This document shows, piece after piece, positions 1,879-31,590 of a DNA stretch of 34,383 nt. Below the pieces are notes generated by a model. The model searched no databases, was not told the origin of the DNA, and saw nothing but the letters and a program-made list of their open reading frames with translations. The DNA is from a virus, in IMG/VR virus record IMGVR_UViG_3300032236_001766, positions 1 through 34,383 of that record; one strand, 5' to 3'. Made by a program: the position numbers and the translations under genes. The stretch's first letter is position 1. Every line of letters begins with the position of its first letter.

Positions 1879-2406
1879 ATGAGCTTTCAACAAGCATTTA
1901 TAAATCAAAAAGATAGCAGCGAAGTTGTGCTATTTAAAAATGCTATGTATGTAAATCCAAAATTTGAAACTTTTTTAAATTATGCAAGATCTGTCGCTGG
2001 AACTGAAAAAGAAAGAATAGAATTTGGCGTTCTTAAAATTTTATATACAAATATGATTGATTCTCCAGTTATGTATGATTTTGATGGCTATCCAGAATTC
2101 AGAGATATATTAAGAAATGTGTGGGGAAATGAGCTTTGGGACGAACCAGTTATGATAGTTTCTGAAATAACTGGGGTCGGGTCTGGATTAAGTGCTCATG
2201 AGGATAGATTAAGGCAAATACACTGGAATTGCGTTGGAACTACACAATGGGATTTTTATAAAAATGATGAAATTTATAAAACTTTAATAATGGAACCTGG
2301 AGATGTGGTTTTTATACCTCTTGGAATAAAGCATGGGGTAAAAACTTTAACTACGCCAAGGGCGGGGATGGCAATATCACTTAATATCCCTAATAAAGCC
2401 AGCTAA
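1879..2406 (+). CDS. Cupin/JmjC-like iron oxygenase candidate
   Basis: A 175-aa soluble protein with the hallmarks of the cupin fold in its second half. H107-E-D109 gives an HxD metal triad start, followed by HWNC and QWDFY. Then come LIMEPGDVVFIP and the distal H152 in KHGVK, and a final strand MAISLNI. JmjC/cupin 2OG oxygenases hydroxylate proteins or small molecules using Fe(II), and this domain order fits. The substrate is unknown and non-oxygenase cupins cannot be excluded. The gene stands alone on the plus strand behind a CRP/GlxR-like site. It lacks a Shine-Dalgarno at the proper distance, which fits leaderless translation. Its last 30 nt overlap the convergent 2OG oxygenase gene, so the two oxygenases share their 3' ends. 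Confidence 0.7.
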   Translation: MSFQQAFINQKDSSEVVLFKNAMYVNPKFETFLNYARSVAGTEKERIEFGVLKILYTNMIDSPVMYDFDGYPEFRDILRNVWGNELWDEPVMIVSEITGVGSGLSAHEDRLRQIHWNCVGTTQWDFYKNDEIYKTLIMEPGDVVFIPLGIKHGVKTLTTPRAGMAISLNIPNKAS

Positions 2407-2955
2407 AACATATCGTGTACCTGATGTAACCTCTTTTACACCATGTAAATATATGGGGCTTGCAGAATGAACTAGCAAAGATCCTCTTTCTGGCTTAACT
2501 TCTATGCCAAATTTTGGATAATATGTTTGCCCCCCACTAAAATCGTCATTTAAATAGAGAACTGTACCATATTTTATATCGCTACCTTCTCCACCATCAC
2601 AATGAACCTTCATAGAGTCTCCAGTTTTGAATCTCAATATGTTCAAATACCTATCAATTTGATATTTTTGAATATATTTTTTCATTTTTTCATCATTTTC
2701 TAAAACTGATAGTATTTTTTCCATTAAATAGTCTAAATACTTGTCATCTATGTCTGTAGATTCTTTTAAATTTAGCACATTATTTCGCCAAGTGTCTAAT
2801 GCGGGGGGATGTTCTGGATCAACATTGTTTTCTCCATAATGAGTCCAATTAGATTCAGGTACACTTCTTACTACATTAAGTAAATACTCTGATTCTTCTT
2901 CATTTAAAATGTCTTTGTATAAAAAAATATTTCTTTCGAGAGCTATCTTTTCCAA
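2377..2955 (-). CDS. 2OG-Fe(II) oxygenase, prolyl-4-hydroxylase type
   Basis: This 192-aa protein has the complete P4H-family core. H118-C-D120 (KVHCDGG) and distal H171 (LHGVKEV) would bind Fe(II). R181 in SGTRYVLAGF would hold the 2-oxoglutarate carboxylate. The strand YLNDDFSGGQTYYP is the block shared with the large array at 21326-29541. The first codon is TTG, since an in-frame TAG lies just upstream and no early ATG exists. It overlaps the 46-aa gene upstream by 13 nt, so coupled translation is likely. This is the only family member outside the array and on the other strand. Substrate unknown; peptidyl proline or another side chain is the family expectation. Confidence 0.85.
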   Translation of the reverse strand: MEKIALERNIFLYKDILNEEESEYLLNVVRSVPESNWTHYGENNVDPEHPPALDTWRNNVLNLKESTDIDDKYLDYLMEKILSVLENDEKMKKYIQKYQIDRYLNILRFKTGDSMKVHCDGGEGSDIKYGTVLYLNDDFSGGQTYYPKFGIEVKPERGSLLVHSASPIYLHGVKEVTSGTRYVLAGFIRDIK

Positions 2956-5088: not shown

Positions 5089-5106
5089 ATCATAGCATGC
5101 TATAAT
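5089..5106. promoter_or_regulatory. Overlapping divergent promoters
   Basis: The palindrome AGCATGCT (5094-5101) is shared by two extended -10 elements. TGCTATAAT points right (5098-5106) and TGCTATGAT points left (5089-5097). A -35-like TTGTTT for the leftward one lies at 5112-5117 with a 17-bp spacer. They drive the glycosyltransferase (right) and the transglycosylase operon (left). The two polymerases cannot bind at once. Confidence 0.65.
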
Positions 5107-18200: not shown

Positions 18201-19755
18201 TACTACAGGTGGAAACCTTGCAAATGGTATTGTTTCCGCAATTACAGTAGATGCTTATGGTCGTGTTACAGGATATCAAACTGGAGCACAAAACGTTGCA
18301 AGTACCTCAAATAAAGGTATTGCTTCTTTTGATTCCGCATCATTTACAGTAACATCTGGTAACGTAGTTATTAAATCAGCTGGTATCTCAAATACACAGC
18401 TTGCTAATTCAAGCGTAACAATTGGTACAACAGCAATTGCTTTAGGCTCTTCATCAACTACTCTTGTAGGTCTGACATCAGTATCATCAACTGGATTTAC
18501 TGGTGCACTTACTGGTAATGCTGATACAGCAACTAAGCTTGCAACAGCACGTAATATTAATGGTGTATCGTTTGATGGTTCAGCAGCAATTACTGTAAAA
18601 GCATCTACTACAAATGCTCTTACAATTGGAACAGGCCTTTCAGGATCATCGTTTGATGGCTCAGCTGGGGTTACAATTGCTATAGATTCAACAGTAGCAA
18701 CATTAACTGGATCACAGACTCTTACAAATAAGACTCTTACATCTCCAACAATTGGAACAATCCTTAATACTGGTACATTAACACTTCCAACATCAACAGA
18801 TACACTTATTGGTAAGGCTACAACAGATACCCTTACAAATAAAACATTTGATACAGCTGGAACAGGTAACGTATTTAAGATTGCTGGAACTCAAATTTCA
18901 GCTAATACAGGTACAGGATCAAACGTTCTTGCTACCAGCCCAACAGTAACTGGTCTTTCAACAGATACACTTACAACAACTGGTAACGTAACGGTTGGCG
19001 GTAACTTAACAGTTAATGGTACAACAACTACAATTAACTCAACAACTCTCAATACAACAGAGCAAGTTCTTGTTATCTCTAATGCAGCTACACCAACAGA
19101 TGTAACTGCAAATGGTGCGGGAATTACAATTAAGGGTGCTACAGATAAGACAATTAAATGGTACTCATCAACAGGTGCTGTAACATTCTCTGAAAATATT
19201 GATATAGCATCAGGTAAAACATATAAGATTAATGGAACAGATGTACTTACTGCTACAGCAGTAGGTGGAAGAACAATTCCAGGTTCAGCAATCGTTGGTT
19301 TGACAGATACTCAAACTCTTACAAATAAGACTTTGACTTCTCCATCATTAACAACACCAACAGTATCTTCTGGAACCTTAACAGTTTCATCATCTGGTGT
19401 AACATTCTCAGATGGAACAGCTCAAACAACTGCAGGTGTTGCATCACTTACAACAATTGGAACTGCAATTGCTGCTTCAAACGGAACATATTATCCATCA
19501 CAATATCGTGATCAGATGGTTCCAATTTCAGGTGCATATGCACTTACAATTGCTCCAGATGGAACAAATACAGCAGCTGTTGGTACATCAGTAGACTTCT
19601 ATCAATCAGCAGGAACAGGTGCAAGCTTTGTAGCGGGATCAGGTGTAACAATTATTTCCACCCCAGGACTAAAGCTTAGAACTACTGGCTCTGTTGCAAC
19701 AATAATGAAGACAGCAGCAAATACATGGTTACTATTTGGTGACTTGTCAGCATAA
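15265..19755 (+). CDS. Giant tail fibre (1496 aa)
   Basis: Residues 1-55 (VRIQLRRGTASQWTSINPI, then IKIGDGSTHWNDLGY) are a well-known phage fibre N-terminal domain that joins the fibre to the tail. Residues about 60-720 are Ala/Thr/Ser-rich helical repeats (AETYTDTAIS, VTNRNSAI, LKEIADAI), a long trimeric coiled coil. About 785-935 follow ASKAYVDNVASGMNWHTAV and a globular domain (RVLMKDQTDAKQNGIYVV) found in many fibres. Then beta repeats with TLTNKTLTSP at about 1153 and 1352. The last about 100 residues (YRDQMVPISGAYALTIAPDG to WLLFGDLSA) form the tip. It should set host range. Five in-frame GCG-GGA codon pairs occur. Its own promoter is at 15226. Confidence 0.85.
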   Translation: MSTVRIQLRRGTASQWTSINPILAGGEAGFESDTLKIKIGDGSTHWNDLGYATVTPQNLTDAINSVVAGEVSGYATLTDLSDAIAQEVTDRNNAIATAVSAVVAGEDFIAISEKGVANGVATLNSSGNIPDSQIASDIVRNIEMGDALASAEAAIDIKISTAQSNAETYSDNNLVDAKSYTDSKISTEVTNRNSAINTAKSQAISTAETYTDTAISNLVAAAPSTLDTLKEIADAIASDESTAAALATTVGTKIPLSQKASANGVATLNSNSKVPMEQLSISGGSGIEYDPSTGIIAVNSTIATITYVGSRIDGVRSDAYNYTDVAAGVASEATIAGVIEAKAYADTKSTQAINSSKSYTDIAVTSVEAYTDSAIATEVTNRNNAISASLTTAENFASSVASSAQNTAESYADTKKSEAISTAESYADQKKSEAITASEGYTDSAISSEVTARNSAIATAKSQAISTSETYADLVAGNAQTNAESYADTKKSEAITAAESFATAADSTLHTTVTGEIATAKSQAISTAEGYTDTAISNLVNGAPSTLDTLKEIADALGSDANLSTTITNHIASAKADAEAYTDSSIATEVTNRNSAINTAKSQAITTSEAYTDSAISGEVSNRNTAISNAISTEVTNRNSAIATAKSDAETYTDSAISTEVTNRNSAILTAKNSAITTSENYTDNAISTEVTNRNNAIAGIVKTTDTGSVTSAMILDGTIVDGDISTSASIADTKLATITTSGKVANSATTATDANTASAIVARDASGNFTANLITVNTTPTANGHAASKAYVDNVASGMNWHTAVKAASTGNSGVTYSNGTAGVGATLTADTNRSIATLDNASLVVGNRVLMKDQTDAKQNGIYVVTTLGSSSAPWVLTRASDANNSTPGQVAPGDAVYVQGGTVNGNQAFIETGEGTGTGLSIVLGTDSVTWTQFTGAANLTAGNGLTRTGNSIDVVSSTLNITADAVDLATVSQTNTTGGNLANGIVSAITVDAYGRVTGYQTGAQNVASTSNKGIASFDSASFTVTSGNVVIKSAGISNTQLANSSVTIGTTAIALGSSSTTLVGLTSVSSTGFTGALTGNADTATKLATARNINGVSFDGSAAITVKASTTNALTIGTGLSGSSFDGSAGVTIAIDSTVATLTGSQTLTNKTLTSPTIGTILNTGTLTLPTSTDTLIGKATTDTLTNKTFDTAGTGNVFKIAGTQISANTGTGSNVLATSPTVTGLSTDTLTTTGNVTVGGNLTVNGTTTTINSTTLNTTEQVLVISNAATPTDVTANGAGITIKGATDKTIKWYSSTGAVTFSENIDIASGKTYKINGTDVLTATAVGGRTIPGSAIVGLTDTQTLTNKTLTSPSLTTPTVSSGTLTVSSSGVTFSDGTAQTTAGVASLTTIGTAIAASNGTYYPSQYRDQMVPISGAYALTIAPDGTNTAAVGTSVDFYQSAGTGASFVAGSGVTIISTPGLKLRTTGSVATIMKTAANTWLLFGDLSA

Positions 19756-19757
19756 TC

Positions 19758-19766
19758 TGGTATAAT
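19758..19766 (+). promoter_or_regulatory. Extended -10 promoter (TGGTATAAT)
   Basis: TG-G-TATAAT directly after the giant-fibre stop codon; SD AAAAGGGGAC precedes the ATG at 19793. Nearly the same arrangement as before 15265, so the two genes are probably expressed alike. Confidence 0.6.
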
Positions 19767-19792
19767 TAAAAAATAGAAAAGGGGACAATAAA

Positions 19793-21307
19793 ATGTCAAA
19801 GCAAGCAGGTAGATTTTCAGCAGATGGTCAAGATCAACACGTTGCCCCGTTAGCCGTAACAGGTTTAACAGCAGCAAATGTAGGAACTGGTAGGGCATAT
19901 AACAATGGAGCAGCAAACTTAGCATGGACACTTCCAGCTAACTCTATTCCAGCTACATTATATACTATTACATCAACTCCAGCAACTACAACACAAACAA
20001 CATCATCTACATCATACCAGTTTACTGGATTAGCATCTGGTACTGCTTATACATTTACAGTTGTCCCCTCAAACTCTTATGGTTCTGGAGCATCAACTAC
20101 CTCTGGATCAATAACAGCTACTACGGTTCCGCAAGCACCTACAATTGGCACAGCCACAGATACAGGTTCTGGACGTGCTTACAATAATGGGCTTGCAACA
20201 GTTCCATTTACAGCAGGTGCAACAGGAGGTTCAGCAATTACTGGATATACTGTTACAGCATCAGCAGGAGGATTTACTGGAACTGGAACAACTTCTCCAA
20301 TTACAGTTGCAGGTCTTGCATCAGCAACAGCATATACCTATACTGTTACTGCAACAAATGCTAATGGAACATCAGCAGCATCTGCAGCATCTAACTCTGT
20401 TACAGCAACAACAATCCCACAGGCACCGCAAGCACCTGGAGTTACATCTACAACAAACGGTGTAGATGTAGTATCTTGGACAGCGGGAGCAAATGGTGGT
20501 CTTGCACAGACATTTAATATTACAGATGGAACAACATCTTACACAAACGTTACATCACCATATTCATTTGGTGAAACAGCAGGATCTACACACTCATTTA
20601 CAATTACAGCTGTAAATGCAAATGGAACTTCAGTAGGAGCAGCAACTGGATCTATTGTTACATTCTTTGCCCCACCTACATTCTTCTCACCCCCAGGGTT
20701 CTTTGCACCACCAATATTCTTTGCACCACCAGGGTTCTTTGCACCACCAATATTCTTTGCACCACCAGGGTTCTTTGCACCACCAGGATTTTACATCATT
20801 CCTTATTTTGCTGGACTTTGCATTGATGGAGATACTTTAATTGATACTTCAAATGGTAAAGTTGCAATGAAAGATTTAAAAGAAGGAGATGCTCTTCTTT
20901 CTTATAGTATTAAAGAAATTAATGATCAACCAGATTATCAAAAATTCTCATGGAATTCTGAAACATTCACAGTTGATTCAGAAGGATTTACAGAATCTGT
21001 AATTACTGAAATTTCTTCTAAAGAAGATTCAGATATAGTTTGCTTTAACGATAATACAAAAATTAAAATGACATTTACTCAGCCAGTATTTGTTAAGTCT
21101 CACGTTGACAACATATATAGAGTTAAAGAAGCTTATTTTGTTGAAGAGGGCGACTTACTTATTTGGGCATCAGAAGATGGCTCATATACTGAAGTTCCAG
21201 TTACTAAAATTGATTATTATACTGATGAAACTCGTACAGTTTATCAGCTCACATGTAAACCGCATGACTGGTTCTTTGCTGACGGAATGTTAGTTCACAA
21301 TAAATAA
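19793..21307 (+). CDS. Fibronectin-III adhesin with FFAPPG repeat and C-terminal Hint domain (504 aa)
   Basis: Three fibronectin type III-like domains span about 15-105, 108-205 and 210-288; the pattern YTVTASAGG, ATAYTYTVTATNANG is clear. Residues 291-333 are seven FFxPPx units (DNA repeat 20663-20788). A Hint (hedgehog/intein) domain follows. C343 begins block A (CIDGDTLIDTSNGKV), and the domain ends WFFADGMLVHNK with H502-N503 one residue before the stop. Hint domains rearrange the peptide bond at their first Cys, cutting off or ligating the preceding protein. The block B His appears replaced (TFTQPVF), so activity may be partial. Probable virion adhesin, processed or tethered through its C-terminus. 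Confidence 0.8.
   Translation: MSKQAGRFSADGQDQHVAPLAVTGLTAANVGTGRAYNNGAANLAWTLPANSIPATLYTITSTPATTTQTTSSTSYQFTGLASGTAYTFTVVPSNSYGSGASTTSGSITATTVPQAPTIGTATDTGSGRAYNNGLATVPFTAGATGGSAITGYTVTASAGGFTGTGTTSPITVAGLASATAYTYTVTATNANGTSAASAASNSVTATTIPQAPQAPGVTSTTNGVDVVSWTAGANGGLAQTFNITDGTTSYTNVTSPYSFGETAGSTHSFTITAVNANGTSVGAATGSIVTFFAPPTFFSPPGFFAPPIFFAPPGFFAPPIFFAPPGFFAPPGFYIIPYFAGLCIDGDTLIDTSNGKVAMKDLKEGDALLSYSIKEINDQPDYQKFSWNSETFTVDSEGFTESVITEISSKEDSDIVCFNDNTKIKMTFTQPVFVKSHVDNIYRVKEAYFVEEGDLLIWASEDGSYTEVPVTKIDYYTDETRTVYQLTCKPHDWFFADGMLVHNK
20663..20788 (+). repeat. Seven 18-bp tandem repeats encoding FF(A/S)PP(G/I/T)
   Basis: Seven direct units of TTCTTTGCACCACCA plus a variable triplet (GGG, ATA, ACA or GGA); the first two are more diverged. 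The last units alternate PPG and PPI. The array joins the third fibronectin domain to the Hint domain. Near-identity of the later units suggests recent expansion by slippage. Four units carry Pro-Pro-Gly, the favoured context of prolyl-4-hydroxylases. Confidence 0.9.
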
Positions 21308-21325: not shown

Positions 21326-21967
21326 ATGTTTGTGAATCAAACATGGAGCTCAAAAGAAAATTTGGGTATAGGAATTTCTGTCTATAGGGATGTTTTTACA
21401 AAAGACTTAAACATAATAGAAGATATGATTGGTGTTTTAGAAAACCCTTTAAGTCCTTATTCTTGGAAAAAATCTTATGTTGGCGATAAAAAAGAAGTAA
21501 ATAATTATAGAAACTCTAATGATTTTAAATTTAGAAAATCAGACATAAGAAATGATAGTAAAGAATCAAAAATAATTAAAGATGTTTGGCAAACATGTTA
21601 TGATAAAATGATTGTTGCAGTTGATGATTATATTAAAGAGTACAAAATGAATCCTTTGCAATACTGGGAAGTTATGAATTTTATTAAATATGAACCAGGT
21701 CAATATTTTGAAACACATTGTGACCATGGATTTACATATAACTCAACTACATCGTTAGTTGGATATTTAAATGATGACTACGAAGGCGGGGAGTTATATT
21801 TTCCACTACAAGACCTAACAATAAAACCAAAAATAGGAGATTTATACATATTTCCATCAACTTATGTATATCCTCATAAAGCAATGCCAGTTAAAGATGG
21901 GTTAAAGTATTCATTAGTTACAATGTTAGATCATAATCCAAAATGGCATTATATTGGAAAGCAATAA
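21326..21967 (+). CDS. 2OG-Fe(II) oxygenase 1 of the array
   Basis: P4H-type protein, 213 aa. Iron ligands: H131-C-D133 in THCDHGF and H184 in YPHKAMP. K194 (GLKYSLVTML) stands at the 2OG-binding position usually held by Arg or Lys. The block YLNDDYEGGELYFP precedes DLTIKPKIGDLYIFP. The preceding helix-strand QYWEVMNFIKYEPG is shared with array member 4 (23788), its closest paralogue. There is only a weak SD, and the start lies 19 nt after the Hint-adhesin stop, so it may be transcribed together with that adhesin. Substrate unknown; the adjacent FFAPPG repeat is an attractive candidate. Confidence 0.88.
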   Translation: MFVNQTWSSKENLGIGISVYRDVFTKDLNIIEDMIGVLENPLSPYSWKKSYVGDKKEVNNYRNSNDFKFRKSDIRNDSKESKIIKDVWQTCYDKMIVAVDDYIKEYKMNPLQYWEVMNFIKYEPGQYFETHCDHGFTYNSTTSLVGYLNDDYEGGELYFPLQDLTIKPKIGDLYIFPSTYVYPHKAMPVKDGLKYSLVTMLDHNPKWHYIGKQ

Positions 21968-21971
21968 AAAT

Positions 21972-22715
21972 ATGGAATATAAAAGCATTAAGTTTTCATC
22001 AACTAAAAAATGGATTGATGATAGCCATATAACATATCCATCTCCAGCTAACAAAAATTTACCAACATGGTATAAAGAATCTAAAAATTTTATGACTGAT
22101 AAAAATACTGGAGAAATTTTAAAAGATAGTAATGGTAATAAAATAGTATCATGGAGAGCATGTCCATCAATGCTAGATACTTATTTGACTGGTTATGTAT
22201 TAAAAACTCCATGCGATATAACATTTTATAAAAATGAGTTTAATATTATAGATGTAAATGTTGAAAATCAAAAATATAAAGATTTTTGTCAAAAAAGATC
22301 TCCTATGGATGAATCTGGGTTCTTTCACCCTAAAGGTTTTTATAAAAATCATTTTGCATGGCATGGATATTGGAATATTGAAACTCCAGAAGGATATAGT
22401 TGTTTATTTTTAAATCCAATCAATCATTTTAATCTTCCGTTTCTAGATACTTCTGGAATAATTGACACAGATAAAGTATCAATTCCAGGATCAATCCCGT
22501 TTTTTATACCAGAAGGTTGGACGGGAACTATACAGGCTGGAACCCCATATATGCAAGTAATACCATTTAAAAAAGAAAATTGGGAATCTACTTTTGTAAA
22601 AGAAGAAGAAGATGTTTTTTATAAAAAGAAAATAGAGGTTACAAGGCTTTTCAGACAAAGAAAAACTGGCGGTATATATAAAGAAAAATTTTGGAATAGA
22701 AAAGATTATAAATGA
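21972..22715 (+). CDS. DUF6065-like protein A (247 aa)
   Basis: I start at the ATG at 21972; a TTG six codons upstream inside the previous gene is possible. The protein begins with LPTWYKESKNFM after a short strand, then ACPSMLDTYLTGYVLKTPCDI. The C-terminal half has LFLNPINHFNLPFLDTSGII, then AGTPYMQVIPFKKENW. This tail strongly resembles the end of DUF6065 family proteins, whose function is unknown. The gene at 25145 is a paralogue. No known catalytic triad is visible. Placement between oxygenase genes, with a 4-nt overlap into the next one, suggests it works with them, for example in substrate binding or modification. Confidence 0.65.
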   Translation: MEYKSIKFSSTKKWIDDSHITYPSPANKNLPTWYKESKNFMTDKNTGEILKDSNGNKIVSWRACPSMLDTYLTGYVLKTPCDITFYKNEFNIIDVNVENQKYKDFCQKRSPMDESGFFHPKGFYKNHFAWHGYWNIETPEGYSCLFLNPINHFNLPFLDTSGIIDTDKVSIPGSIPFFIPEGWTGTIQAGTPYMQVIPFKKENWESTFVKEEEDVFYKKKIEVTRLFRQRKTGGIYKEKFWNRKDYK

Positions 22716-23275
22716 ATAAAATATCATTAGGCCCAAGTATAAGTTTGTATAAAAATGTAAATATTGATATATATGATATTCTAAAAGAAATAAATGATGA
22801 TTTATGGAAAAATGAAATGGTTGTAAATCAAAATGGAAACAGGGAGCTAGACTTAGATAATAGAAATACAAAGTCTTTAACTATTCCTATTAAACAAAAT
22901 AAAGATATGGATAAAAAAATAAACCTATTGTCAAGTTTAATAAGTGATAAAATTATACCAATAGAAAAAGATTATTTAATTGAAAATGATACAAATTTAA
23001 AATCTCATGATGATTATAAAATATTAAAATATGAAATTGGTGGTAAATTTAATTTGCACAGGGATGACGGTGGAGGTAGGTTTAGAAGAATGTCTTGGGT
23101 TTATTATATAAACGATGATTACGAAGGGGGAGAGCTTTGCTTTCCGACTTTTAACATTGATATAAAACCAGATGCTGGAGATTTAATATTTTTTCCATCA
23201 TCTTATGCATACCCTCATTATGTTAAACCAGTTATTTCTGGAACAAGGTATTCTATAGCTAGTTGGATGAGATAA
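22712..23275 (+). CDS. 2OG-Fe(II) oxygenase 2
   Basis: 187 aa. H116-R-D118 in FNLHRDDGG, distal H169 (YPHYVKPV) and R179 in GTRYSIASWM complete the active site. YYINDDYEGGELCFP and DIKPDAGDLIFFP match the array pattern. It begins at an ATGA overlap with the DUF6065-like gene and ends 3 bp before the next oxygenase, so translation is coupled. The N-terminal region (about 1-100) is divergent and Asp/Asn/Lys-rich, probably the substrate-selecting part. Confidence 0.88.
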   Translation: MNKISLGPSISLYKNVNIDIYDILKEINDDLWKNEMVVNQNGNRELDLDNRNTKSLTIPIKQNKDMDKKINLLSSLISDKIIPIEKDYLIENDTNLKSHDDYKILKYEIGGKFNLHRDDGGGRFRRMSWVYYINDDYEGGELCFPTFNIDIKPDAGDLIFFPSSYAYPHYVKPVISGTRYSIASWMR

Positions 23276-23278
23276 GAT

Positions 23279-23770
23279 ATGAATGAAATTTTAATTGTTG
23301 ATGATTTTTTAACAAAAGAAGAATGTGATATTTTAATTAATGAAATTAATAATTCAGATTTAAATCTTTGGGACATAAGATCAGATGGAAAAGATATGGC
23401 TACTTTAAAATTAAAAAATCATAAAATCTTAATAAATATATATAATAGATTAAATAGCTATTTTGATTCAAGTTTTAAATTACAAATGATCAGGGTAGCA
23501 CATAGGACAACTACAAATACAATTTGGGATGCACATTCTGATGAAGAAGGCGGGTCAGAAATTAAATATGGAATTGTTATATACCTAAATGATAATTTTA
23601 TTGATGGAGAATTAAACTATATTAATTTGGGAATTAAATATAAACCTAAATTGGGATCTATGGTAATTCATCCAGCAGATCAGGAATACAAGCATGTTGT
23701 AGAAAAAGTATCTTCAGGCATTAGGTATACTCTTACCAGCTTTGCAAGAGCCTTAGAAGATATGATATAA
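23279..23770 (+). CDS. 2OG-Fe(II) oxygenase 3 (short form)
   Basis: At 163 aa it is the shortest member. It opens ILIVDDFLTKEECDILINEI, the classic P4H first strand and helix. H86-S-D88 (DAHSDEEGG), H139 (YKHVVEKV) and R149 (GIRYTLTSF) form the active site. The central strand reads YLNDNFIDGELNYI rather than DDYEGGE, so it is off the main lineage. In build it is closest to the leftward oxygenase at 2377 (EEGGSEIKYG against GEGSDIKYG). The stop overlaps the extended -10 of the next gene. Confidence 0.87.
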   Translation: MNEILIVDDFLTKEECDILINEINNSDLNLWDIRSDGKDMATLKLKNHKILINIYNRLNSYFDSSFKLQMIRVAHRTTTNTIWDAHSDEEGGSEIKYGIVIYLNDNFIDGELNYINLGIKYKPKLGSMVIHPADQEYKHVVEKVSSGIRYTLTSFARALEDMI

Positions 23771-23771
23771 T
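23763..23771 (+). promoter_or_regulatory. Extended -10 promoter inside the array (TGATATAAT)
   Basis: TG-A-TATAAT overlaps the stop of the gene at 23279; SD AAAGGAG follows, 5 nt before the ATG at 23788. It splits the array into at least two transcription units. Confidence 0.55.
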
Positions 23772-23787
23772 AAAAAAAAGGAGAAAA

Positions 23788-24459
23788 ATGCTTCAGAATG
23801 CAGAATATTTATACCCAGGCATTATGGTATATAGAGATGTCTTTAAAAAAGATATGGACATAATTAATAGATTAGAAACTAATTTATCTAGTTCGGATGT
23901 AGATAATAGATGGTCTGTTGCAAGAACTGGTTATTCAATTACAGATAAATCATATAGGGATTGTTTTGATTATAAAATTAAAAAAAATGATAATGATGAT
24001 TCTAAAAAAAGTAAAAACAGAATAGAGTTAGAAAAGCTTTGGCAAGAATGCAAAGATGTTCAAATAGACCCCATAGAAGATTATAGAACTATGTTTGGAG
24101 TAGCCCCATTAAATTATTGGGAAGCTTTTAATTTTATTAAATACGGAAAAGATCAACACTTTCAAGTTCATTCGGACCACGGATATTCCTATATAGCTGT
24201 TCTTTCAGCAGTTGGCTATATTAATGATGACTACGAAGGTGGAGAATTATATTTTGATAAGTTTGATTTAAAAATTAAGCCAAAAGCTGGAGATTTATAC
24301 CTATTCCCATCTGCATTTGTTTATTCACATGCTGCTATGCCAGTCCAATCAGGAACAAAATATTCAATAGTAACCATGTTAGATTATTTTGAGGCAGCAC
24401 ATACACCAGAATATAGGGAGATGGAAAAAAGATATGCTGATTCATACTCTTTAAAATAA
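23788..24459 (+). CDS. 2OG-Fe(II) oxygenase 4
   Basis: 223 aa with H128-S-D130 (VHSDHGY), H181 (YSHAAMPV) and K191 (GTKYSIVTML). NYWEAFNFIKYGKDQHFQ and YINDDYEGGELYF make it a near twin of array member 1, including Lys in place of Arg. It has the best Shine-Dalgarno in the array (AAAGGAG) and its own promoter. Like member 1 it is followed by a DUF6065-like gene, which suggests a block duplication. Confidence 0.88.
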   Translation: MLQNAEYLYPGIMVYRDVFKKDMDIINRLETNLSSSDVDNRWSVARTGYSITDKSYRDCFDYKIKKNDNDDSKKSKNRIELEKLWQECKDVQIDPIEDYRTMFGVAPLNYWEAFNFIKYGKDQHFQVHSDHGYSYIAVLSAVGYINDDYEGGELYFDKFDLKIKPKAGDLYLFPSAFVYSHAAMPVQSGTKYSIVTMLDYFEAAHTPEYREMEKRYADSYSLK

Positions 24460-24462
24460 AAA

Positions 24463-25152
24463 ATGTATAATTTGACTGCGTATAGAATGCCAAATGGAGC
24501 AATAATAAATCAATCTCCAGTAAAAAGAGACTGGATGGATAATACCCATGATAAACATGCATATCAATGTTTTCCACTTTCACTTACAAATTCTTTAGGC
24601 TGGTCAATATCATATCCAAAAGATATATCATTTGTGCTAGAATCAAAAGCTGGTAATCCAAAAGGTATGGTAACAGTTTTAGAAGGACATGAGTTCTGTA
24701 GCAACTCCAGAATGAATTCAACAATAAGTTTTAAAACTGGCATAAATATATCAACAGATGAAAATGTTACATGTTTAATTATGCCAGTTCCCAATCAATT
24801 TATTGATGGTGCTCAGTGTTTTACTACTCTTTTATCAACATCATTTTTTAATAATGATTTGCCTATAGTTTGGATGGTTACAAAAATGGATCAAATTATT
24901 ACAATAAAAGCTGGAGCACCAGTTGCCTCAATAATTCCAGTTTCTTTATCAGAAATAAATAACTCTGAAATTACTATAAAACCAATGAAAGAAAAAGTAG
25001 ACTTATTTAATGGAAAAGAATATTTTGAAGCAACAAAAAAAATAACATCTTTAGGGAAATGGACAAATTTTTATAGAAATGCAACTGATCACTTGGGAAA
25101 TAAAATTGGAATTCATGAAGCAAAATCTTTAAGGTTTAAAGTTAATGAATAA
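24463..25152 (+). CDS. DUF6065-like protein B (229 aa)
   Basis: The opening SPVKRDWMDNTHDKHAYQCF, then PLSLTNSLGWSI, is the recognisable DUF6065 N-terminus. Next come FCSNSRMNSTISFKTGINI, a strand pair (CLIMPVPNQFIDGAQCF) and IKAGAPVASIIPVSL near residue 150, where DUF6065 proteins have their 'GEPF' strand. It is more distant from the two other DUF-like proteins. No enzyme motif is evident. The 8-nt overlap with the next gene implies coupled synthesis with protein C. Confidence 0.68.
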   Translation: MYNLTAYRMPNGAIINQSPVKRDWMDNTHDKHAYQCFPLSLTNSLGWSISYPKDISFVLESKAGNPKGMVTVLEGHEFCSNSRMNSTISFKTGINISTDENVTCLIMPVPNQFIDGAQCFTTLLSTSFFNNDLPIVWMVTKMDQIITIKAGAPVASIIPVSLSEINNSEITIKPMKEKVDLFNGKEYFEATKKITSLGKWTNFYRNATDHLGNKIGIHEAKSLRFKVNE

Positions 25153-25870
25153 TAAAATTATTTTTCATTCAAATAGAATATATAATGCTTTTTTTCAACA
25201 AAATAAGCCAGTACCTTCTGATAAAAAAATGCCAGAATGGTGGAAAAAATCTGAAAGATATTTTATAAATAAAGAAACTGGCGAACCATTTTTTGATTTT
25301 CAAGGAGATAAAGCTTTAACGTTTAAAGCATGTCCAGCATTATTAGATATTTTTAGTGTTGGATATTTTTTAATTACACCTTGCGATATTGAGTTTTTTA
25401 ATGAAGATGGAATAAAAAAAATAAAATTAGATGGTAATTTTTCAGATTTTTGTGCACCAAGAATAGAAATGCCAGGATTAGAAGTTCCCAAAGGCTACTT
25501 AAAAGATCATTTTAGATGGTATCCAAATTGGTCTCCAGAGCTTCCAGAAGGGTATAGTGCATTATACATAAATCCTATAAATAGGTTTGATCTACCGTTC
25601 ATATCTATGTCTGGTATAATAGATAATGATAAAACTAATACTCCAGGGTTTATTCCGTTTTTTGTAAGAGAGGATTTTGAGGGTGTTATTCCAGCAGGGA
25701 CTCCATATTTACAAATCATTCCGTTTAAAAGAGAAAACTGGGATTCAGAATTTAAATATCACGATAGTGAGAGTATAAGGTTGAGACAAGTTAAATCAGC
25801 AGAAATTTTTAGAATAAAAGGCGGAGGGGGATATAAAAAACATGTCTGGTCAAGAAAAGAATACAAATGA
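25145..25870 (+). CDS. DUF6065-like protein C (241 aa)
   Basis: Paralogue of protein A (21972): MPEWWKKSERYFINKETGEP, FKACPALLDIFSVGYFLITP, YSALYINPINRFDLPF, SGIIDNDKTNTPGF and AGTPYLQIIPFKRENW line up in order. Similarity runs the full length, so duplication of a whole gene is likely. The C-terminal VWSRKEYK matches FWNRKDYK in protein A. The next gene starts within its last 29 nt. Confidence 0.68.
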   Translation: MNNKIIFHSNRIYNAFFQQNKPVPSDKKMPEWWKKSERYFINKETGEPFFDFQGDKALTFKACPALLDIFSVGYFLITPCDIEFFNEDGIKKIKLDGNFSDFCAPRIEMPGLEVPKGYLKDHFRWYPNWSPELPEGYSALYINPINRFDLPFISMSGIIDNDKTNTPGFIPFFVREDFEGVIPAGTPYLQIIPFKRENWDSEFKYHDSESIRLRQVKSAEIFRIKGGGGYKKHVWSRKEYK

Positions 25871-26543
25871 AAAGGGTTTTTATATAAACTCAGAAGAAGT
25901 AAGAACTATGGCAAAATCAATAACCCCTTCTGGGCATTTTGGTATTTCTGCAGACATGATACAAGAAGTAGAAGATGCAGTAACCCCAGAAGAACAAGAA
26001 TATCTTTTAAATTTTGCAAAAAATAATCAAGTATGGGATGTTACAGAAAACAACTATAATGAAAATGGAACTTTAATTTATGGTGCAAATATTTGGAAAG
26101 ATAGGGTTGCATCATATAGAAATTTACAACAAAATGATCCAAAAGTAGTAGAAATTCTTTCTGCAATAGTAGAACGCTTGAGGTTAAAGATAGAAGATTT
26201 TTATAATGTAAAAGTAACTGCTTCAGGCCCAGCCGTAGTCCGTTGGCCATTAGGTACTCATCAACATCCACATGCTGACAAAGAAATGCATGATGGACCA
26301 GATGCAGGTAAGCCAAATAATTTTCCATGGTATGACTTGGGAACAGTATTTTATTTAAACGACGATTACGAGGGCGGGGAATTGTTTTTTCCCTTGCAAG
26401 GAATAAAGTTTAAACCTAAAGCAAGAGCTGCTTATTTTTTCCCAGGAGATAAAAATTATATACATGGAGTAACACCAGTATTAAGTAATTGTAGATATAC
26501 TGCTCCATTTTTCTGGACAATAAAAGAATTGGATGTAAAATAA
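25842..26543 (+). CDS. 2OG-Fe(II) oxygenase 5
   Basis: H144-A-D146 within a His-rich THQHPHADKEMH, distal H208 (YIHGVTPV) and R218 (NCRYTAPFFW). YLNDDYEGGELFFP and IKFKPKARAAYFFPGD follow the array pattern. The insertion between the first His and the core strand (MHDGPDAGKPNNFPWYDLG) is longer than in members 1-4. The first ATG lies inside the preceding gene. A later ATG at 25908 (MAKSITPSGHFG) is an equally possible start, giving 211 aa. Confidence 0.85.
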   Translation: MSGQEKNTNEKGFYINSEEVRTMAKSITPSGHFGISADMIQEVEDAVTPEEQEYLLNFAKNNQVWDVTENNYNENGTLIYGANIWKDRVASYRNLQQNDPKVVEILSAIVERLRLKIEDFYNVKVTASGPAVVRWPLGTHQHPHADKEMHDGPDAGKPNNFPWYDLGTVFYLNDDYEGGELFFPLQGIKFKPKARAAYFFPGDKNYIHGVTPVLSNCRYTAPFFWTIKELDVK

Positions 26544-27317
26544 TTGGATAATAATATTGAATTTGTTGAACTTTTACCAAAAGTTTTGATTTATAAAAAT
26601 TTATTACCAAATTCAAAAGAACTTGTAGAAATAATTAAAGATTCAGAAAAAAATTCAGATGGAAAATATTTTTTACAAAAATGGACTCCATGGAGTGTTT
26701 TTGGAACATATACTCAAGACAAACATGATGACTCGTACCCAAGAGAATTTGGTGAGATGTATGATAAAGAAAAATATCTTTCTGATTCAATAAAAAACGC
26801 ATATAATATTGCGTATTCAGATTATATAAAAAGATTTGACATAACGCTTCCTCCAGATTGCGTTTTAACAAGTTCATCATATTCTAAATATAATCCAAAT
26901 TTTGATCCAATGAAAAATGATCTTACTATGCAATATCATACAGACTATATTATGTCTGAAGCAGAAATGCCAGGTCCAAAATTTTTCTTAACATGCACAA
27001 CGTATTTAAATGATGACTACGAAGGCGGGGATATTGAGTTTTATGTTGATGGAGAATATTATCCGTATAAACCAGTCTCTGGGGACATTTTAGTATTTCC
27101 TTCAGGAGCACCGTACTACCATGGAGTTAGAACAATAAAAGGCGGAGAAAAGTTCTTTATAAGAGCTTTTATGCAATATTATTTTGATGGCACACCAGAA
27201 TGGTTATGGAAGCAAAGATATTATGGTGCACATAGGTGGGCAAAAATGGAGCAAGAACGTATTGAAAAAGAAAATCCAAAAAACATGATATACACAGATA
27301 GGAAAAAAACTCAATGA
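26544..27317 (+). CDS. 2OG-Fe(II) oxygenase 6
   Basis: 257 aa, starting at a TTG immediately after the previous stop; no early ATG exists. H132-T-D134 (YHTDYIMSEAE), H193 (YYHGVRTI) and K203 (GEKFFIRAF) are the ligands. The core strand is YLNDDYEGGDIEF. KWTPWSVFGTY in the N-terminal part resembles KWLPWTASDSN in member 8, so the two form a subgroup. An extra 45-residue Arg/Lys/Glu tail (QRYYGAHRWAKMEQERIEKE) could bind a partner or polymer. Confidence 0.85.
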   Translation: MDNNIEFVELLPKVLIYKNLLPNSKELVEIIKDSEKNSDGKYFLQKWTPWSVFGTYTQDKHDDSYPREFGEMYDKEKYLSDSIKNAYNIAYSDYIKRFDITLPPDCVLTSSSYSKYNPNFDPMKNDLTMQYHTDYIMSEAEMPGPKFFLTCTTYLNDDYEGGDIEFYVDGEYYPYKPVSGDILVFPSGAPYYHGVRTIKGGEKFFIRAFMQYYFDGTPEWLWKQRYYGAHRWAKMEQERIEKENPKNMIYTDRKKTQ

Positions 27318-28012
27318 AAATAAAATCTTTAAAAGATGATTTTTTTTATGTTGAAAATTTTATAACACCAGAAGAGTGTCAATCAATAATAAATTATTTG
27401 GAATGGCAAGTTCAAAATAAAATATTAGAGTGGAATCAGATTTCTTTTTATGGTTCTATGGCAATGGGTTATTGGCCTTACGATGAAAATTTAAAATATT
27501 TTAATTTAGACAAAAATTATTTTAATAATTTAAAAGAAAAAATTAAAAAAATATCTGAAGAAGCACTAGGCATAGAACTTTCTGAAGTAAGTTATCATGC
27601 ACAAAAATGGGTTGATGGAGCTTTTGCAGGTTACCATTCAGATAATTCTGATGAAAATGGAAACCCAACAGCTTTTGAAAGAAGTAAATATGCAGTCTTT
27701 TTATATCTAAACGATAATTTTGATGGTGGTAGTTTAAAGTTTAAAAACTATGATATTGATTTAAAACCTAAAACTGGATTAATTGCTATATTTGCTGGAG
27801 GTCATGGAAACGAACATATGGTAACAACAATATCTGGTGGATCAAGATACACTGTAGGTTCATTTTGGGATGATGCAAAGTCTGAATATTCTGATGAAAA
27901 AAGAAAAGCTTGGGCAGATGAACTTGCAAAAGTTCGTGCTGATCAAGAAATAATGTATAAAAATTGGGAAAAGATGGAAGAGTTGGGATCAAAACCAACC
28001 TTGTCAGAATAA
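27314..28012 (+). CDS. 2OG-Fe(II) oxygenase 7
   Basis: 232 aa, ATGA-coupled to member 6. It opens with DFFYVENFITPEECQSIINY. H108-S-D110 (YHSDNSDENG), H168 (GNEHMVTTI) and R178 (GSRYTVGSFW) give the active site. The core strand is changed to YLNDNFDGGSLKF. The C-terminal helix (SDEKRKAWADELAKVRADQE) has no counterpart in members 1-4. It is one of the most diverged array members. Confidence 0.86.
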   Translation: MKIKSLKDDFFYVENFITPEECQSIINYLEWQVQNKILEWNQISFYGSMAMGYWPYDENLKYFNLDKNYFNNLKEKIKKISEEALGIELSEVSYHAQKWVDGAFAGYHSDNSDENGNPTAFERSKYAVFLYLNDNFDGGSLKFKNYDIDLKPKTGLIAIFAGGHGNEHMVTTISGGSRYTVGSFWDDAKSEYSDEKRKAWADELAKVRADQEIMYKNWEKMEELGSKPTLSE

Positions 28013-28014
28013 AA

Positions 28015-28650
28015 ATGAATTCTATAGATAAAGATGTTTTTATTGCAGATCATAAAAATGATAAAATTTTTTATTGGAAAAATGTTATTTCCAATCCTTC
28101 AAAAATTTTAGAAGACATAGATCGTTTAGAAAAAGATGAAAGTTCTTATATTAAAATTGAAAAATGGTTACCTTGGACAGCAAGTGATAGTAATTCAAAT
28201 ATATATGGAGATTTAAAAACATTTTATCCACAAAATATTTACGCTCAAACAATTAATCAACAGAATGATATTGATGCATACAACATTATTAATAACTGTG
28301 CAATTGCTTTCAATATGTGCTTTAGCCTTTATTTTAAAGAGCATGGAATAAATATAGAAAATTATAATATTGAGTATAATTGGTTAGTTTTAAAAAGATG
28401 GAATATTGGGTCTAAAATGGGACCTCATTTTGATGGTAGCTATGGTAAAGAAAATAAACTAGAGTTTACAGCAATATTATATTTTAACGATGATTATGAA
28501 GGCGGAGAACTTTATTTTAATGATCAAAATATATTGTTAAAACCAGAAGCGGGAAGCATGGTTGTTTTTCCAGGCTCTTTTACACATGAAGTAAAAGAAA
28601 TAAAGGGCAATTATAGATATATGATGAGTATATCTGCTTATAAAAAATAG
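28015..28650 (+). CDS. 2OG-Fe(II) oxygenase 8
   Basis: I start at the ATG at 28015, directly after the previous stop; an upstream TTG in the previous gene is less likely. The protein is 211 aa with H138-F-D140 (PHFDGSYG), H191 (THEVKEI) and R201 (NYRYMMSIS). YFNDDYEGGELYF and LLKPEAGSMVVFPG follow. It groups with member 6 through KWLPW. GCGGGA at 28549 encodes Ala-Gly in a strand near the active site. Confidence 0.87.
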   Translation: MNSIDKDVFIADHKNDKIFYWKNVISNPSKILEDIDRLEKDESSYIKIEKWLPWTASDSNSNIYGDLKTFYPQNIYAQTINQQNDIDAYNIINNCAIAFNMCFSLYFKEHGINIENYNIEYNWLVLKRWNIGSKMGPHFDGSYGKENKLEFTAILYFNDDYEGGELYFNDQNILLKPEAGSMVVFPGSFTHEVKEIKGNYRYMMSISAYKK

Positions 28651-28661
28651 TTGTTTTTTTA

Positions 28662-28670
28662 TGGTATAAT
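28662..28670 (+). promoter_or_regulatory. Extended -10 promoter (TGGTATAAT) before the last oxygenase
   Basis: TG-G-TATAAT in the 45-bp gap before the gene at 28696. SD AGGGGGC follows. It is the only real gap in the 21326-29541 array. Confidence 0.6.
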
Positions 28671-28695
28671 TAATTTATAATAAATAGGGGGCAAT

Positions 28696-29541
28696 ATGTT
28701 GTTTTACGATAGAGCAGACTGTATTAATCCGTCACCATATATTGATGAATATGGAACTAAAAGTGGTATTTTTATAATTAAAAATGCAGTTCCTAAAGAA
28801 TTAATTGAAAAAATTGAAAAACAATTGAAGGCAATGCCCGAAGAATTAAATAAGTTTGATCAAACATTAATAAACTGGTATAGTGAAAAAGTAATATACG
28901 GCATAGATGGAACAATGGATCTTTGGGAACTTGTCAGTGAATTAATTGGACCAGAATGGGTTACACACCCAAATGTAAGCTATATACGTGTGCAACCTGG
29001 TGATAATGGAATGTTTATTCACTCAGATAGTCCAGGAAAAGGTGCCTGTCATTTATTGTCTCAAGCAGACAGATGGAACACATGTTGTTTATTAGATTAC
29101 GGTCTATGTGTCTATCTTGGAGATTATGAAGGAGGAGAAATATTTTATCCATCAATTAATCCAGATGGAACAATAAAGTCACAGGGTAATTCTCAAGAGG
29201 GTTGTTTTGAATATAAGCCTGAAAAAGGAGATATAGTTATACATAGTGCTTTTGAACCTTATTCGCATGGGGTAAGAGAAGTAAAATCTGGGACAAGATT
29301 TGTTTTTTCAAACTTTGTTTTAAAAGCTAAAGATAACCCAGGAACATTTTATAATTATGGAACTCAAGAATATAAAGATCAAATAGGCGATAAAAGCCCT
29401 GAAAAGATAGATATTTGGCATACACCATTAAAAGAAAATCCTCAGTTTACACAAGAAAAAATAAAGATTTATCAAGAATCTGGTCTTGAGGGCGAAGATT
29501 TGGCCAAAGAATTCTTTAGTGATATGGTTGAAGATATATAA
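28696..29541 (+). CDS. 2OG-Fe(II) oxygenase 9 (long form)
   Basis: 281 aa, the longest member. H109-S-D111 (IHSDSPGKGACH), H191 (YSHGVREV) and R201 (GTRFVFSNFVLK) are in order. The core strand is YLGDYEGGEIFYP. A cysteine-rich insert (WNTCCLLDYGLCVY) and a loop containing EGCFEYKPEKGD set it apart. The last 80 residues (NPGTFYNYGTQEYKD and onward) form an extra C-terminal part of unknown role. It has its own promoter, so it may be regulated separately. The gap 29542-29654 that follows holds an AT-rich inverted repeat and the next promoter. Confidence 0.86.
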   Translation: MLFYDRADCINPSPYIDEYGTKSGIFIIKNAVPKELIEKIEKQLKAMPEELNKFDQTLINWYSEKVIYGIDGTMDLWELVSELIGPEWVTHPNVSYIRVQPGDNGMFIHSDSPGKGACHLLSQADRWNTCCLLDYGLCVYLGDYEGGEIFYPSINPDGTIKSQGNSQEGCFEYKPEKGDIVIHSAFEPYSHGVREVKSGTRFVFSNFVLKAKDNPGTFYNYGTQEYKDQIGDKSPEKIDIWHTPLKENPQFTQEKIKIYQESGLEGEDLAKEFFSDMVEDI

Positions 29542-29639: not shown

Positions 29640-29648
29640 TGGTAAAAT
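29640..29648 (+). promoter_or_regulatory. Extended -10 (TGGTAAAAT), leaderless
   Basis: TG-G-TAAAAT ends 6 bp before the ATG at 29655, with no Shine-Dalgarno in between, so the mRNA is probably leaderless. It starts the portal operon. Confidence 0.5.
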
Positions 29649-29654
29649 TTAACT

Positions 29655-29993
29655 ATGCCTAGAATGAAAGTAACACCAATAGAAGAAGTAAATTACGGAG
29701 TCTATGTTTGGCAGATGCCAGATGGCTCTATAGTTCGTGATGAAGACGATAATACTTTAAGTATCCCGTCCATAAAAGGCGATATACGTCAGATTCAAAA
29801 ATTAAAGGTAGCTGCCAGAAGCTATGGCCTTGATGAGGGTAAGCCTCTTTTCTTTTCTGGTCATCGTCAAGTTACTGAAGAAGAACTTGAAGAACAAAAA
29901 GCACGGGCGGAGATGGGAATGGTTCCAGACCCACAAGATATGCCTGCAATGCTTGAATATGTAAAAGAAGCAAGAGAGATGGGGTTAGCATAA
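29655..29993 (+). CDS. Conserved pre-portal protein (112 aa)
   Basis: It reads MPRMKVTPIEEVNYGVYVWQ and then MPDGSIVRDEDDN, GDIRQIQKLKVAARSYGL, GHRQVTEEELEEQKARAE. I recognise the general style from actinobacteriophage genomes, where a similar short gene lies just before the portal. That is memory, not a search. It is acidic and soluble, with a beta-rich first half and helices after. The stop is one base from the ATG of the portal gene, so the two are co-translated. A role in head assembly is plausible. Confidence 0.7.
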   Translation: MPRMKVTPIEEVNYGVYVWQMPDGSIVRDEDDNTLSIPSIKGDIRQIQKLKVAARSYGLDEGKPLFFSGHRQVTEEELEEQKARAEMGMVPDPQDMPAMLEYVKEAREMGLA

Positions 29994-29994
29994 T

Positions 29995-31578
29995 ATGGAT
30001 CACAATGTAACTATTATGAATGATGATGAAGGCGAAGATGTATCAATTTTAAGCGATGCTGATTTTGGTTTATTTGCAAAAAGAGAAAAAGGTTTTGATG
30101 ACCCATTTAATTCAACATGGGATGACATCAGAAAGTCAGAAGGTTTAAGTGAAAACTTTAGACGCAAAGCAGCAAGATTAGAAAAGTCTTTTACTGGAAG
30201 ACAAGATGCAAAATCAAAAAAGCTTGACCCACTTGATCTTACAGGATATTCATTATTTCAAATAGTTCAGCCTCCATACAACATGCTTTACCTTTCACAA
30301 CTATATGACGTATCTCCATATCATCACTCAGCAGTTAATGCTAAAGTTGCAAACGTTATTGGACTTGGTTATAAGTTTGAAGAAACATATAAGACTACTT
30401 TAAAGGTAGAAGCTGTTATGGATAAACCAGACAAGCTTGACAAAATTCGTTCAAAAATAGAAGCAGCAAAAGTTGATTTGCGTGACTACATAGAGTCATT
30501 AAATTCAGATGATTCATTTTTAGAAACAATGAAAAAAGTTTATACAGACCTAGAGGCTACAGGAAATGCTTATCTTGAAGTTGGTCGTACAACAATGGGA
30601 AAGATTGGTTACATTGGACATATCCCTTGCACTACTATGCGTATTCGTCGTCACCGTGATGGTTTTGTACAGGTTGTATATAACCGTTATACGTTCTTTA
30701 GAAATTTTGGAGACAAAGAAACTCCTGACCAAATTGGTACAGATCCACAACCAAACGAAGTAATTCATTTTAAAAAGTTTACTCCATCAAATACATATTA
30801 TGGCATTCCAGATATTCTATCTGCAAAAAATGCAGTTGCAGGTGATGAATTTGCCCAACGCTTTAACCTAGACTACTTTGAAAACAAAGCGGTTCCACGT
30901 TATATTATTACGGTTAAAGGTGCAAAGCTTACAGCTGAATCAGAGCGTAAACTTCTTGAATTTTTCCAAACTGGATTAAAGGGTAGAAACCACAGAACAC
31001 TTTATATTCCTCTTCCATCAGATGGAGAGAATGCACGTGTTGAATTTAATATGGAGCCAATTGAGGCGGGAGTTCAAGACTCTTCATTCCATCAATATTC
31101 AGTAGAGAATAGAGATCGTATTCTTATTGCACATAGAGTACCTATCTCAAAAATTGGTATGCCTGCAGATGTATCATTGGCAAATGCTAAAGACGCAGAT
31201 AAAACATTTAAAGAGCAAGTATGTCGTCCTATGCAAGAAGAACTTGAATACAAACTTAATAAAATTATGGTTGAATTTACAGATGCATTCCTGCTTAGAT
31301 TTGAAGAGCTTGCATTAACAGATGAAGAAACACAATCAAGAATTGATGCTGCTTATCTTGTAAATAAAGTTGTTCTTCCAAATGAAGTAAGAACGAGACT
31401 TGGTAAACCACCTATTCAAGGTGGAGACGTGCCGCTAGATCTTAATGCACAAGATGCAGCTGAAACTAAAACAGATGCAAAAGGAACAAGAGTAAGAGAT
31501 AAAGAAAGAAATTTAAATTCGTCTGATAAAATGGGTAGCGGTAGAAACCCACAGGGCGAAGGTAGAAAACAAGACTAA
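29995..31578 (+). CDS. Phage portal protein (PBSX-like family)
   Basis: The 527-aa protein would form the dodecameric portal ring through which DNA is packaged and the tail joined. Typical signatures: DPLDLTGYSLFQIVQPPYNM (about 80-100), then SPYHHSAVNAKVANVIGLGY, then GNAYLEVGRTTMGKIGYIGH and VIHFKKFTPSNTYYGIPDIL. VEFNMEPIEAGVQDSSFHQY and RVPISKIGMP are the later core. The C-terminus (from about 480) is hydrophilic and disordered, rich in Lys, Gly and Asn. Length fits the family. Terminase and capsid genes are not in this window. Confidence 0.92.
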   Translation: MDHNVTIMNDDEGEDVSILSDADFGLFAKREKGFDDPFNSTWDDIRKSEGLSENFRRKAARLEKSFTGRQDAKSKKLDPLDLTGYSLFQIVQPPYNMLYLSQLYDVSPYHHSAVNAKVANVIGLGYKFEETYKTTLKVEAVMDKPDKLDKIRSKIEAAKVDLRDYIESLNSDDSFLETMKKVYTDLEATGNAYLEVGRTTMGKIGYIGHIPCTTMRIRRHRDGFVQVVYNRYTFFRNFGDKETPDQIGTDPQPNEVIHFKKFTPSNTYYGIPDILSAKNAVAGDEFAQRFNLDYFENKAVPRYIITVKGAKLTAESERKLLEFFQTGLKGRNHRTLYIPLPSDGENARVEFNMEPIEAGVQDSSFHQYSVENRDRILIAHRVPISKIGMPADVSLANAKDADKTFKEQVCRPMQEELEYKLNKIMVEFTDAFLLRFEELALTDEETQSRIDAAYLVNKVVLPNEVRTRLGKPPIQGGDVPLDLNAQDAAETKTDAKGTRVRDKERNLNSSDKMGSGRNPQGEGRKQD

Positions 31579-31590
31579 AGGAGAAATAAA

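Follow-up and report, generated by a model that had tools for sequence, protein, structure and literature searches.

A conserved phage operon of predicted prolyl-hydroxylase-like oxygenases lies behind a fibre-like gene with Phe/Pro repeats

2-Oxoglutarate- and Fe(II)-dependent (2OG-Fe(II)) oxygenases are common in phages, where they are usually filed as auxiliary metabolic genes. Cyanophages carry them (PHROG 61) at one to a few places per genome, a Baltic Sea survey noted that viral use of prolyl 4-hydroxylase (P4H) 'remains cryptic' (PMC9301287), and phage 2OG oxygenases resemble human EGLN3 (PMC12774648). PBCV-1 vCPH and the peptidyl-prolyl 4-hydroxylases, among them Bacillus anthracis P4H, algal P4H and PHD2, are single enzymes. 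Here we describe a locus in which nine 2OG-Fe(II) oxygenase open reading frames (ORFs; O1 to O9) and three DUF6065-type proteins (D1 to D3), all on the plus strand, occupy positions 21326-29541 of the window, which is the whole of IMG/VR record IMGVR_UViG_3300032236_001766, a virus contig of 34,383 bases that covers part of a phage only. Directly upstream stands a gene for a fibre-like protein with Phe/Pro repeats, REP (19793..21307, +). The array is like vCPH and the P4Hs in fold, in the HxD...H triad, in the 2OG-binding K/R and in having a Pro-rich candidate substrate; it is unlike them in that 4-9 distinct oxygenases, of predicted activity, stand in a fixed order behind one repeat gene, with DUF6065 proteins. 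The cyanophage enzymes belong to the same superfamily (~26-32% identity to O1). We consider it probable that the locus is an operon dedicated to hydroxylating the Phe/Pro repeats of its neighbour REP.

Three further systems invite comparison. Clusters for ribosomally synthesised and post-translationally modified peptides (RiPPs) also place a repeat-bearing, precursor-like gene ahead of several tailoring genes in one operon, and one relative of our array includes a radical SAM-SPASM enzyme. Unlike a RiPP precursor, however, REP is a large, fn3-containing, fibre-like protein with no recognised leader peptide or small-molecule product, and no short precursor or exporter was seen between 19793 and 29993. 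In the Skp1 pathway of Dictyostelium and Toxoplasma, hydroxyproline made by a P4H is then glycosylated (PMC3515798, PMC11570480). PF11397 'GlcNAc' family transferases in the cassettes of three related loci (L009, L010 and L170) are reminiscent of this pathway, but the window array has no such transferase, and the Skp1 substrate and oxygen-sensing role are unrelated. Plant extensins and hydroxyproline-rich glycoproteins use proline-hydroxylated aromatic/proline repeats as a structural stalk; their likeness to REP is a convergent comparison only. Every component family of the operon is known, while the operon itself, a probable case of viral protein hydroxylation, was not found described: the open-access literature in PubMed Central, a scope that excludes most subscription papers, yielded neither an operon of this kind nor any mention of DUF6065 by name.

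REP comprises 504 residues with fn3 domains (Pfam E = 2e-12), an (FFxPPx)7 tract and a C-terminal Hint/intein-like domain. The proposed modification sites lie in the FFAPP-type tandem repeat at 20662..20790 (+; Tandem Repeats Finder, period 18/36). We sampled IMG/VR for FFxPPxFFxPP using the repeat-coding DNA only, with no use of oxygenases in the sampling; this and the other IMG/VR repeat scans are samples, and all counts are among the matches listed. Where the pattern was in frame, 91 of 110 loci held at least one oxygenase (0.33 per kb) and 74 held a DUF6065-type gene. The oxygenases lay predominantly downstream of the repeat gene on the same strand (303 of 324), the nearest at a median of 83 bp. 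By comparison, only 3 of 116 loci sampled with a control GxQGxQ collagen-like fibre pattern had oxygenases (0.004 per kb), as did 5 of 109 sampled with a control proline-rich TPTP repeat. The Fisher p-value for this link was 2e-39, which is not a count of independent events, because looser clustering merges the loci into fewer groups. When the repeat ORFs were masked and the DNA was clustered (1 kb, 85%), at least one oxygenase was kept in 55 of 66 clusters. The same pattern in bacterial genomes gave 74 in-frame matches, none with an oxygenase neighbour, although these were mostly single chance matches and form a weak control.

Two simpler accounts of the substrate were discarded on these data. 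A collagen-like substrate was ruled out by the scarcity of oxygenases in the GxQ-sampled loci and by the window repeat itself, which is FFxPPx and not Gly-X-Y. Proline richness alone as the trigger was ruled out by the TP-repeat loci and by VSPVG loci (L012, L020) that lack arrays. Codon variation within the repeat was also computed, but nothing was inferred on selection because F and P are set by the pattern used for sampling. An independent scan for FxPFG repeats showed linkage of intermediate strength: oxygenases stood in 37 of 114 loci, never three or more by profile, with 49 of 53 oxygenases downstream on the same strand. These scans revealed a second large class of phage fibre with (FxPFG)n repeats (L515-L634), many with a Hint-like end; about one third carry one or two oxygenases, and about one third a DUF6065-type gene.

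The portal protein of the window (29995..31578, +; phrog_12, E = 3e-58) served as a lineage marker; it shares about 53-57% identity with its counterparts in large Streptomyces phages (Stanwilliamsviridae). We compared 43 loci with a window-type portal and at least 6 kb of sequence upstream. Among those with aromatic-PP repeats, 12 of 13 had at least three oxygenases, compared with 2 of the 30 without such repeats; of the two exceptions, L009 has FxPFG repeats and L074 ends before the repeat gene. Loci of this lineage with collagen-like fibres had no oxygenases, except for L035, where a YYNPP repeat is also present. The most telling comparison is L009, whose portal is 99% identical to that of the window. 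Its DNA aligns at 96.5% identity over 29640-32393 and at 75% over 18645-20239, with only short alignable fragments in between. The right border of the exchanged segment is marked by a conserved small protein just 5' of the portal (29655..29993, +; phrog_9394, E = 6e-37), where the alignment resumes at 29640. The repeat of L009 is FTPFG, and its cassette combines four oxygenases and two DUF6065-type proteins with a CxxC protein, a PF11397 GlcNAc-transferase-like gene and two more divergent proteins that seem to carry an HxD/H...H...R pattern. Repeat and enzymes have thus been exchanged together.

These comparisons bear on the alternative that the oxygenases target host proteins or the host surface (ribosomal proteins, EF-Tu, envelope glycoproteins), the fibre gene being a mere neighbour in a hypervariable host-interaction locus. 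The locus is indeed hypervariable: in relatives that lack oxygenases it is occupied by glycosyltransferases, a sulfotransferase, a carbamoyltransferase and an FkbM methyltransferase. Among the structures that best match O4 is, moreover, the Pseudomonas putida P4H, whose structure was determined with EF-Tu bound. We nevertheless regard host targets as unlikely, because they leave unexplained both why arrays are found behind the FFxPP repeat rather than behind other fibres of the same lineage and why repeat type and enzyme set change jointly. Hydroxylation of the REP repeat fits the first-pass annotation, which had proposed a hydroxylase cassette modifying a fibre or adhesin, now with the REP repeat as the likely substrate; in the relatives, too, the oxygenases adjoin the fibre-like gene in a fixed order instead of lying unlinked to it. 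Other portal relatives show another repeat-enzyme pairing: in L012, L020 and L042-L045, a fibre with (VSPVG)n or (VG)n repeats has a PF11397 GlcNAc-transferase-like gene directly behind it and no oxygenases. We take the PF11397 family to be tied to the Skp1 pathway.

To describe the operon across phages, each oxygenase and DUF gene of the fetched loci was assigned to its nearest window gene, and order statistics were computed over the 49 non-redundant phage clusters in which three or more oxygenases occur. The recurrent order was REP - A (O1/O4 type) - D2 - [D1/D3] - O5 - O6/O7 - O8 (- O9). REP preceded A in 42 of 42 clusters, A preceded D2 in 45 of 46 and D2 preceded O5 in 41 of 43; further along, O5 came before O6 (33/33) and O7 (37/37), and O7 before O8 (33/33). 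Neighbouring operon genes overlapped in 65% of cases. The 42 clusters with REP contained A in 42, O5 in 41 and D2 in 39. The first-pass annotation had thought nine contiguous oxygenases unusual, and nine is the top of the range; such operons nevertheless recur, mostly with 4 to 8 oxygenases. The window has an extra O1-D1-O2-O3 block between REP and O4, similar to that in L211 and L089, and in a second lineage (L170, L186, L261) O5 is inverted. At least three genomic contexts were found: before the portal (window, L273), before a ribonucleotide reductase (RNR) gene (L097), and behind tail or virion structural genes (L170, L186, L261). D2 had no matching cultured phage record. The cassettes of relatives also include other protein-modifying enzymes, namely a PF11397 transferase (L009, L010, L170) and a radical SAM-SPASM enzyme (L126), consistent with a protein-modification locus. 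The latter gene lies at L126:10717-11652, within the oxygenase operon, and has a close homologue in L088, where there is no array.

The conserved order argues against a metabolic role, in which the enzymes would hydroxylate free amino acids or siderophore-related compounds, or manage iron and 2OG, for host metabolism in the manner of PiuC/PKHD-like proteins. PHROGs does file phage 2OG oxygenases as 'auxiliary metabolic gene', and by sequence O2 is slightly nearer to PKHD-type PiuC than to P4H. But metabolic genes would not be expected to keep a set order behind a single type of repeat fibre across dozens of clusters, and no accompanying pathway genes were seen in the array, making this account improbable.

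We next consider the oxygenases individually, with E values for Pfam 2OG-FeII_Oxy_3. O1 (21326..21967, +; HCD...H...K; E = 4e-12) is of the A type and a paralogue of the core A-type gene O4 (23788..24459, +; HSD...H...K; E = 8e-13). Between them lie O2 (22712..23275, +; HRD...H...R; E = 4e-17) and O3 (23279..23770, +; HSD...H...R; E = 5e-7). Downstream follow the core gene O5 (25842..26543, +; HAD...H...R; E = 2e-7), O6, which has a TTG start (26544..27317, +; HTD...H...K; E = 1e-8), O7 (27314..28012, +; HSD...H...R; E = 3e-8) and O8 (27964..28650, +; HFD...H...R; E = 4e-11). The last, O9 (28696..29541, +; HSD...H...R), is divergent: eight of the nine array oxygenases pass the Pfam cut-off, whereas O9 scores 20.9 bits against a cut-off of 27, yet it is related to the others in all-versus-all comparison and is placed by its pairwise relatives and the tree. 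As the first-pass annotation had claimed, the HxD motif, the distal His and the K or R are intact in the translations of all nine. The shared LNDDYEGGE-type strand that it had noted is likewise present, with variants in O3 and O7 (LNDNF) and O9 (YLGDYEGGE). Its picture of genes coupled by ATGA or short overlaps held at D1/O2 and O6/O7, which have a true 4-base ATGA overlap, but the other junctions range from -49 to +45. For D1 and O8, the listed TTG start is probably an error, as ATG 21972 and ATG 28015 fit better directly after the preceding stops.

O1 and O4 are 47% identical and may represent a local duplication. Apart from this pair, each window oxygenase grouped in the tree with orthologues from other phages and not with its neighbours, which points to old, distinct subfamilies with separate roles. 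Passive amplification, in which tandem-duplicated paralogues have no joint function, would accommodate the O1/O4 pair and the duplication of O8 in L055, but we give it next to no credence: nine intact active sites speak against it, and the tree and the conserved order contradict it.

By sequence, O1 matched only bacterial prolyl 4-hydroxylases in the PDB (E = 1e-6), whereas O2 matched PiuC, P4H, prolyl 3-hydroxylase (P3H1) and PHD2. The structural model of O4 (predicted local distance difference test, pLDDT, 91.9) matched peptidyl-prolyl hydroxylases of animals, algae, bacteria, amoeba and PBCV-1 (Foldseek E = 6e-11), with VIA Z scores of 18-21 (maximum 20.7) for PHD2, Pseudomonas putida P4H, algal P4H and PBCV-1 vCPH; the matches include the algal P4H with (Ser-Pro)5. 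In its model, O4 thus has the DSBH fold in its prolyl-hydroxylase form. We classify the array proteins as P4H-type 2OG-Fe(II) oxygenases, for which peptidyl proline hydroxylation is predicted.

The first-pass annotation had also described three DUF6065-like proteins. Pfam recognises only D2 (24463..25152, +), a core operon gene and DUF6065 proper (PF19541, E = 8e-26, 91.5 bits versus a cut-off of 26.6); D1 (21954..22715, +; phrog_7084, E = 8e-37) and D3 (25145..25870, +; phrog_7084, E = 9e-33) have no Pfam hit, but D2 and D1/D3 form one superfamily (hhalign probability 95.9, E = 6e-9). The D3 model (pLDDT 95.6) matched dUTPase (Foldseek E = 2e-3, probability 1.00; VIA Z 10.1, 2.7 Å over 119 residues). 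By this model, DUF6065/phrog_7084 adopts a beta-clip fold like that of dUTPase, a structural annotation new to the family; the Z of about 10 is clear but not huge, and a fold alone does not establish function. The DUF6065-type consensus has GY..., GIIDxD and GTPxxQIIP segments resembling dUTPase motifs 1, 3 and 4, of which D1 and D3 keep the GIIDxD segment and D3 a GIIDxD...GTPxxQIIP stretch; a PRSS-like motif 2 and motif 5 were not seen by eye. D3-type relatives are widespread among haloarchaeal tailed viruses; in Halorubrum phage HF2 (L514), the neighbours of such a gene are RNR and tail genes, and no oxygenase is annotated there.

Such a fold raises the prospect of nucleotide or DNA modification, in which DUF6065 would handle a pyrimidine nucleotide that the oxygenases hydroxylate, as in TET/JBP-like hypermodification. 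The matches of DUF6065 to dUTPase/dCTP deaminase folds, the motif 3-like segment of D1/D3 and the RNR gene beside the operon in one lineage would suit this proposal. Tet_JBP matches, however, were far under the cut-off, the nearest folds to O4 are peptidyl-prolyl hydroxylases, and the operon is tied to the fibre repeat and not to replication genes, so that we rate nucleotide chemistry as a long shot. That the DUF6065 proteins are partners of the oxygenases, as first proposed, is suggested by gene order only, and their fold is dUTPase-like.

The genes, their active sites, the gene order, the close linkage to the repeat, the joint change of repeat and enzyme set and the modelled fold of O4 are observed; REP as the substrate and the mechanism that follows are inferred. 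If the operon acts on REP, the oxygenases would hydroxylate the repeat during REP synthesis with the help of Fe(II), 2-oxoglutarate and O2. The O1/O4 type would most probably make hydroxyproline at the Pro-Pro pairs; proline is likely to be the first target, since the O1/O4 type adjoins REP and is the most P4H-like of those tested. O5-O9 would probably target the other Pro, Phe or units hydroxylated beforehand, and their sequential or position-specific action is plausible, if on the doubtful side. The DUF6065 proteins would most likely serve as a scaffold or adaptor, perhaps trimeric, a preference that is weak against a nucleotide enzyme. The matured repeat would form a stiffened or chemically diversified stalk displaying fn3 domains on the virion, perhaps with altered stiffness, stickiness or recognition and presumably to the benefit of the phage. 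We hold only tentatively to a more elaborate version, an ordered assembly line that would carry out several oxidations per FFxPPx unit on Pro and Phe, so that part of the fibre would consist of non-coded residues, with repeat and enzyme set swapped together, cutting or ligation by Hint, and variants that add glycosylation or radical chemistry.

Several observations weigh against hydroxylation of REP. The substrate is assigned from linkage, and the structural side comprises two predicted models, O4 and D3. By profile, 19 of the 110 FFxPP loci lack an oxygenase, although some of these are truncated near a contig end and at least L183 and L243 hold a divergent relative. The proportion of FxPFG loci with an oxygenase implies that the enzyme is not always required for a repeat of this type, and L045 encodes a VG-repeat protein with 4 aromatic-PP matches but no oxygenase. 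Five to nine hydroxylases seem to exceed the need of a six-residue unit, so some may act elsewhere, and the modelled DUF6065 fold points to a nucleotide enzyme as readily as to a scaffold. Should the proposal hold, phages would possess dedicated multi-enzyme systems that build non-coded amino acids into a fibre. Unusual biomaterials and hydroxylases could then be drawn from them, and the diversification of phages and hosts would have a new axis. For phage oxygenases generally filed as metabolic, the repeat just upstream provides a candidate substrate that can be named.

The Hint/intein-like domain of REP (20816-21307, +) is suggested in the translation by a Cys after the repeat and a terminal VHNK; the Pfam matches to Intein_splicing (E = 1e-5) and Hint_2 are both below their cut-offs. 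In the REP proteins of relatives the Phe/Pro repeat is regular, whereas the Hint part is optional, being kept, degraded or absent. The tested Hint segment had no match in cultured phages. This domain could cut or ligate the fibre end.

Cultured phages gave no megablast match to the window, and promoter-like sites were no more frequent than in shuffles. In the Stanwilliamsviridae phage Blueeyedbeauty, glycosyltransferases are followed by RNR, an endolysin, two hypothetical genes and the portal. The ends of the window match this order, with a glycosyltransferase at 5105 and RNR at 6208 on the left and the small gene at 29655 and portal at 29995 on the right; between them, fibre genes and the oxygenase array take up about 20 kb. 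One of the fibres (15265-19755) has 1,496 residues, an Mtd_N domain (E = 2e-12) and many repeats. A tenth 2OG-Fe(II) oxygenase, Om (2377..2955, -; PF13640 above cut-off), lies outside the array. Near Om is a CxxC-rich protein (3592-4110, -) with a relative at L009:3290-3712, inside the L009 oxygenase cassette, so the minus-strand genes of the window may belong to the same system.

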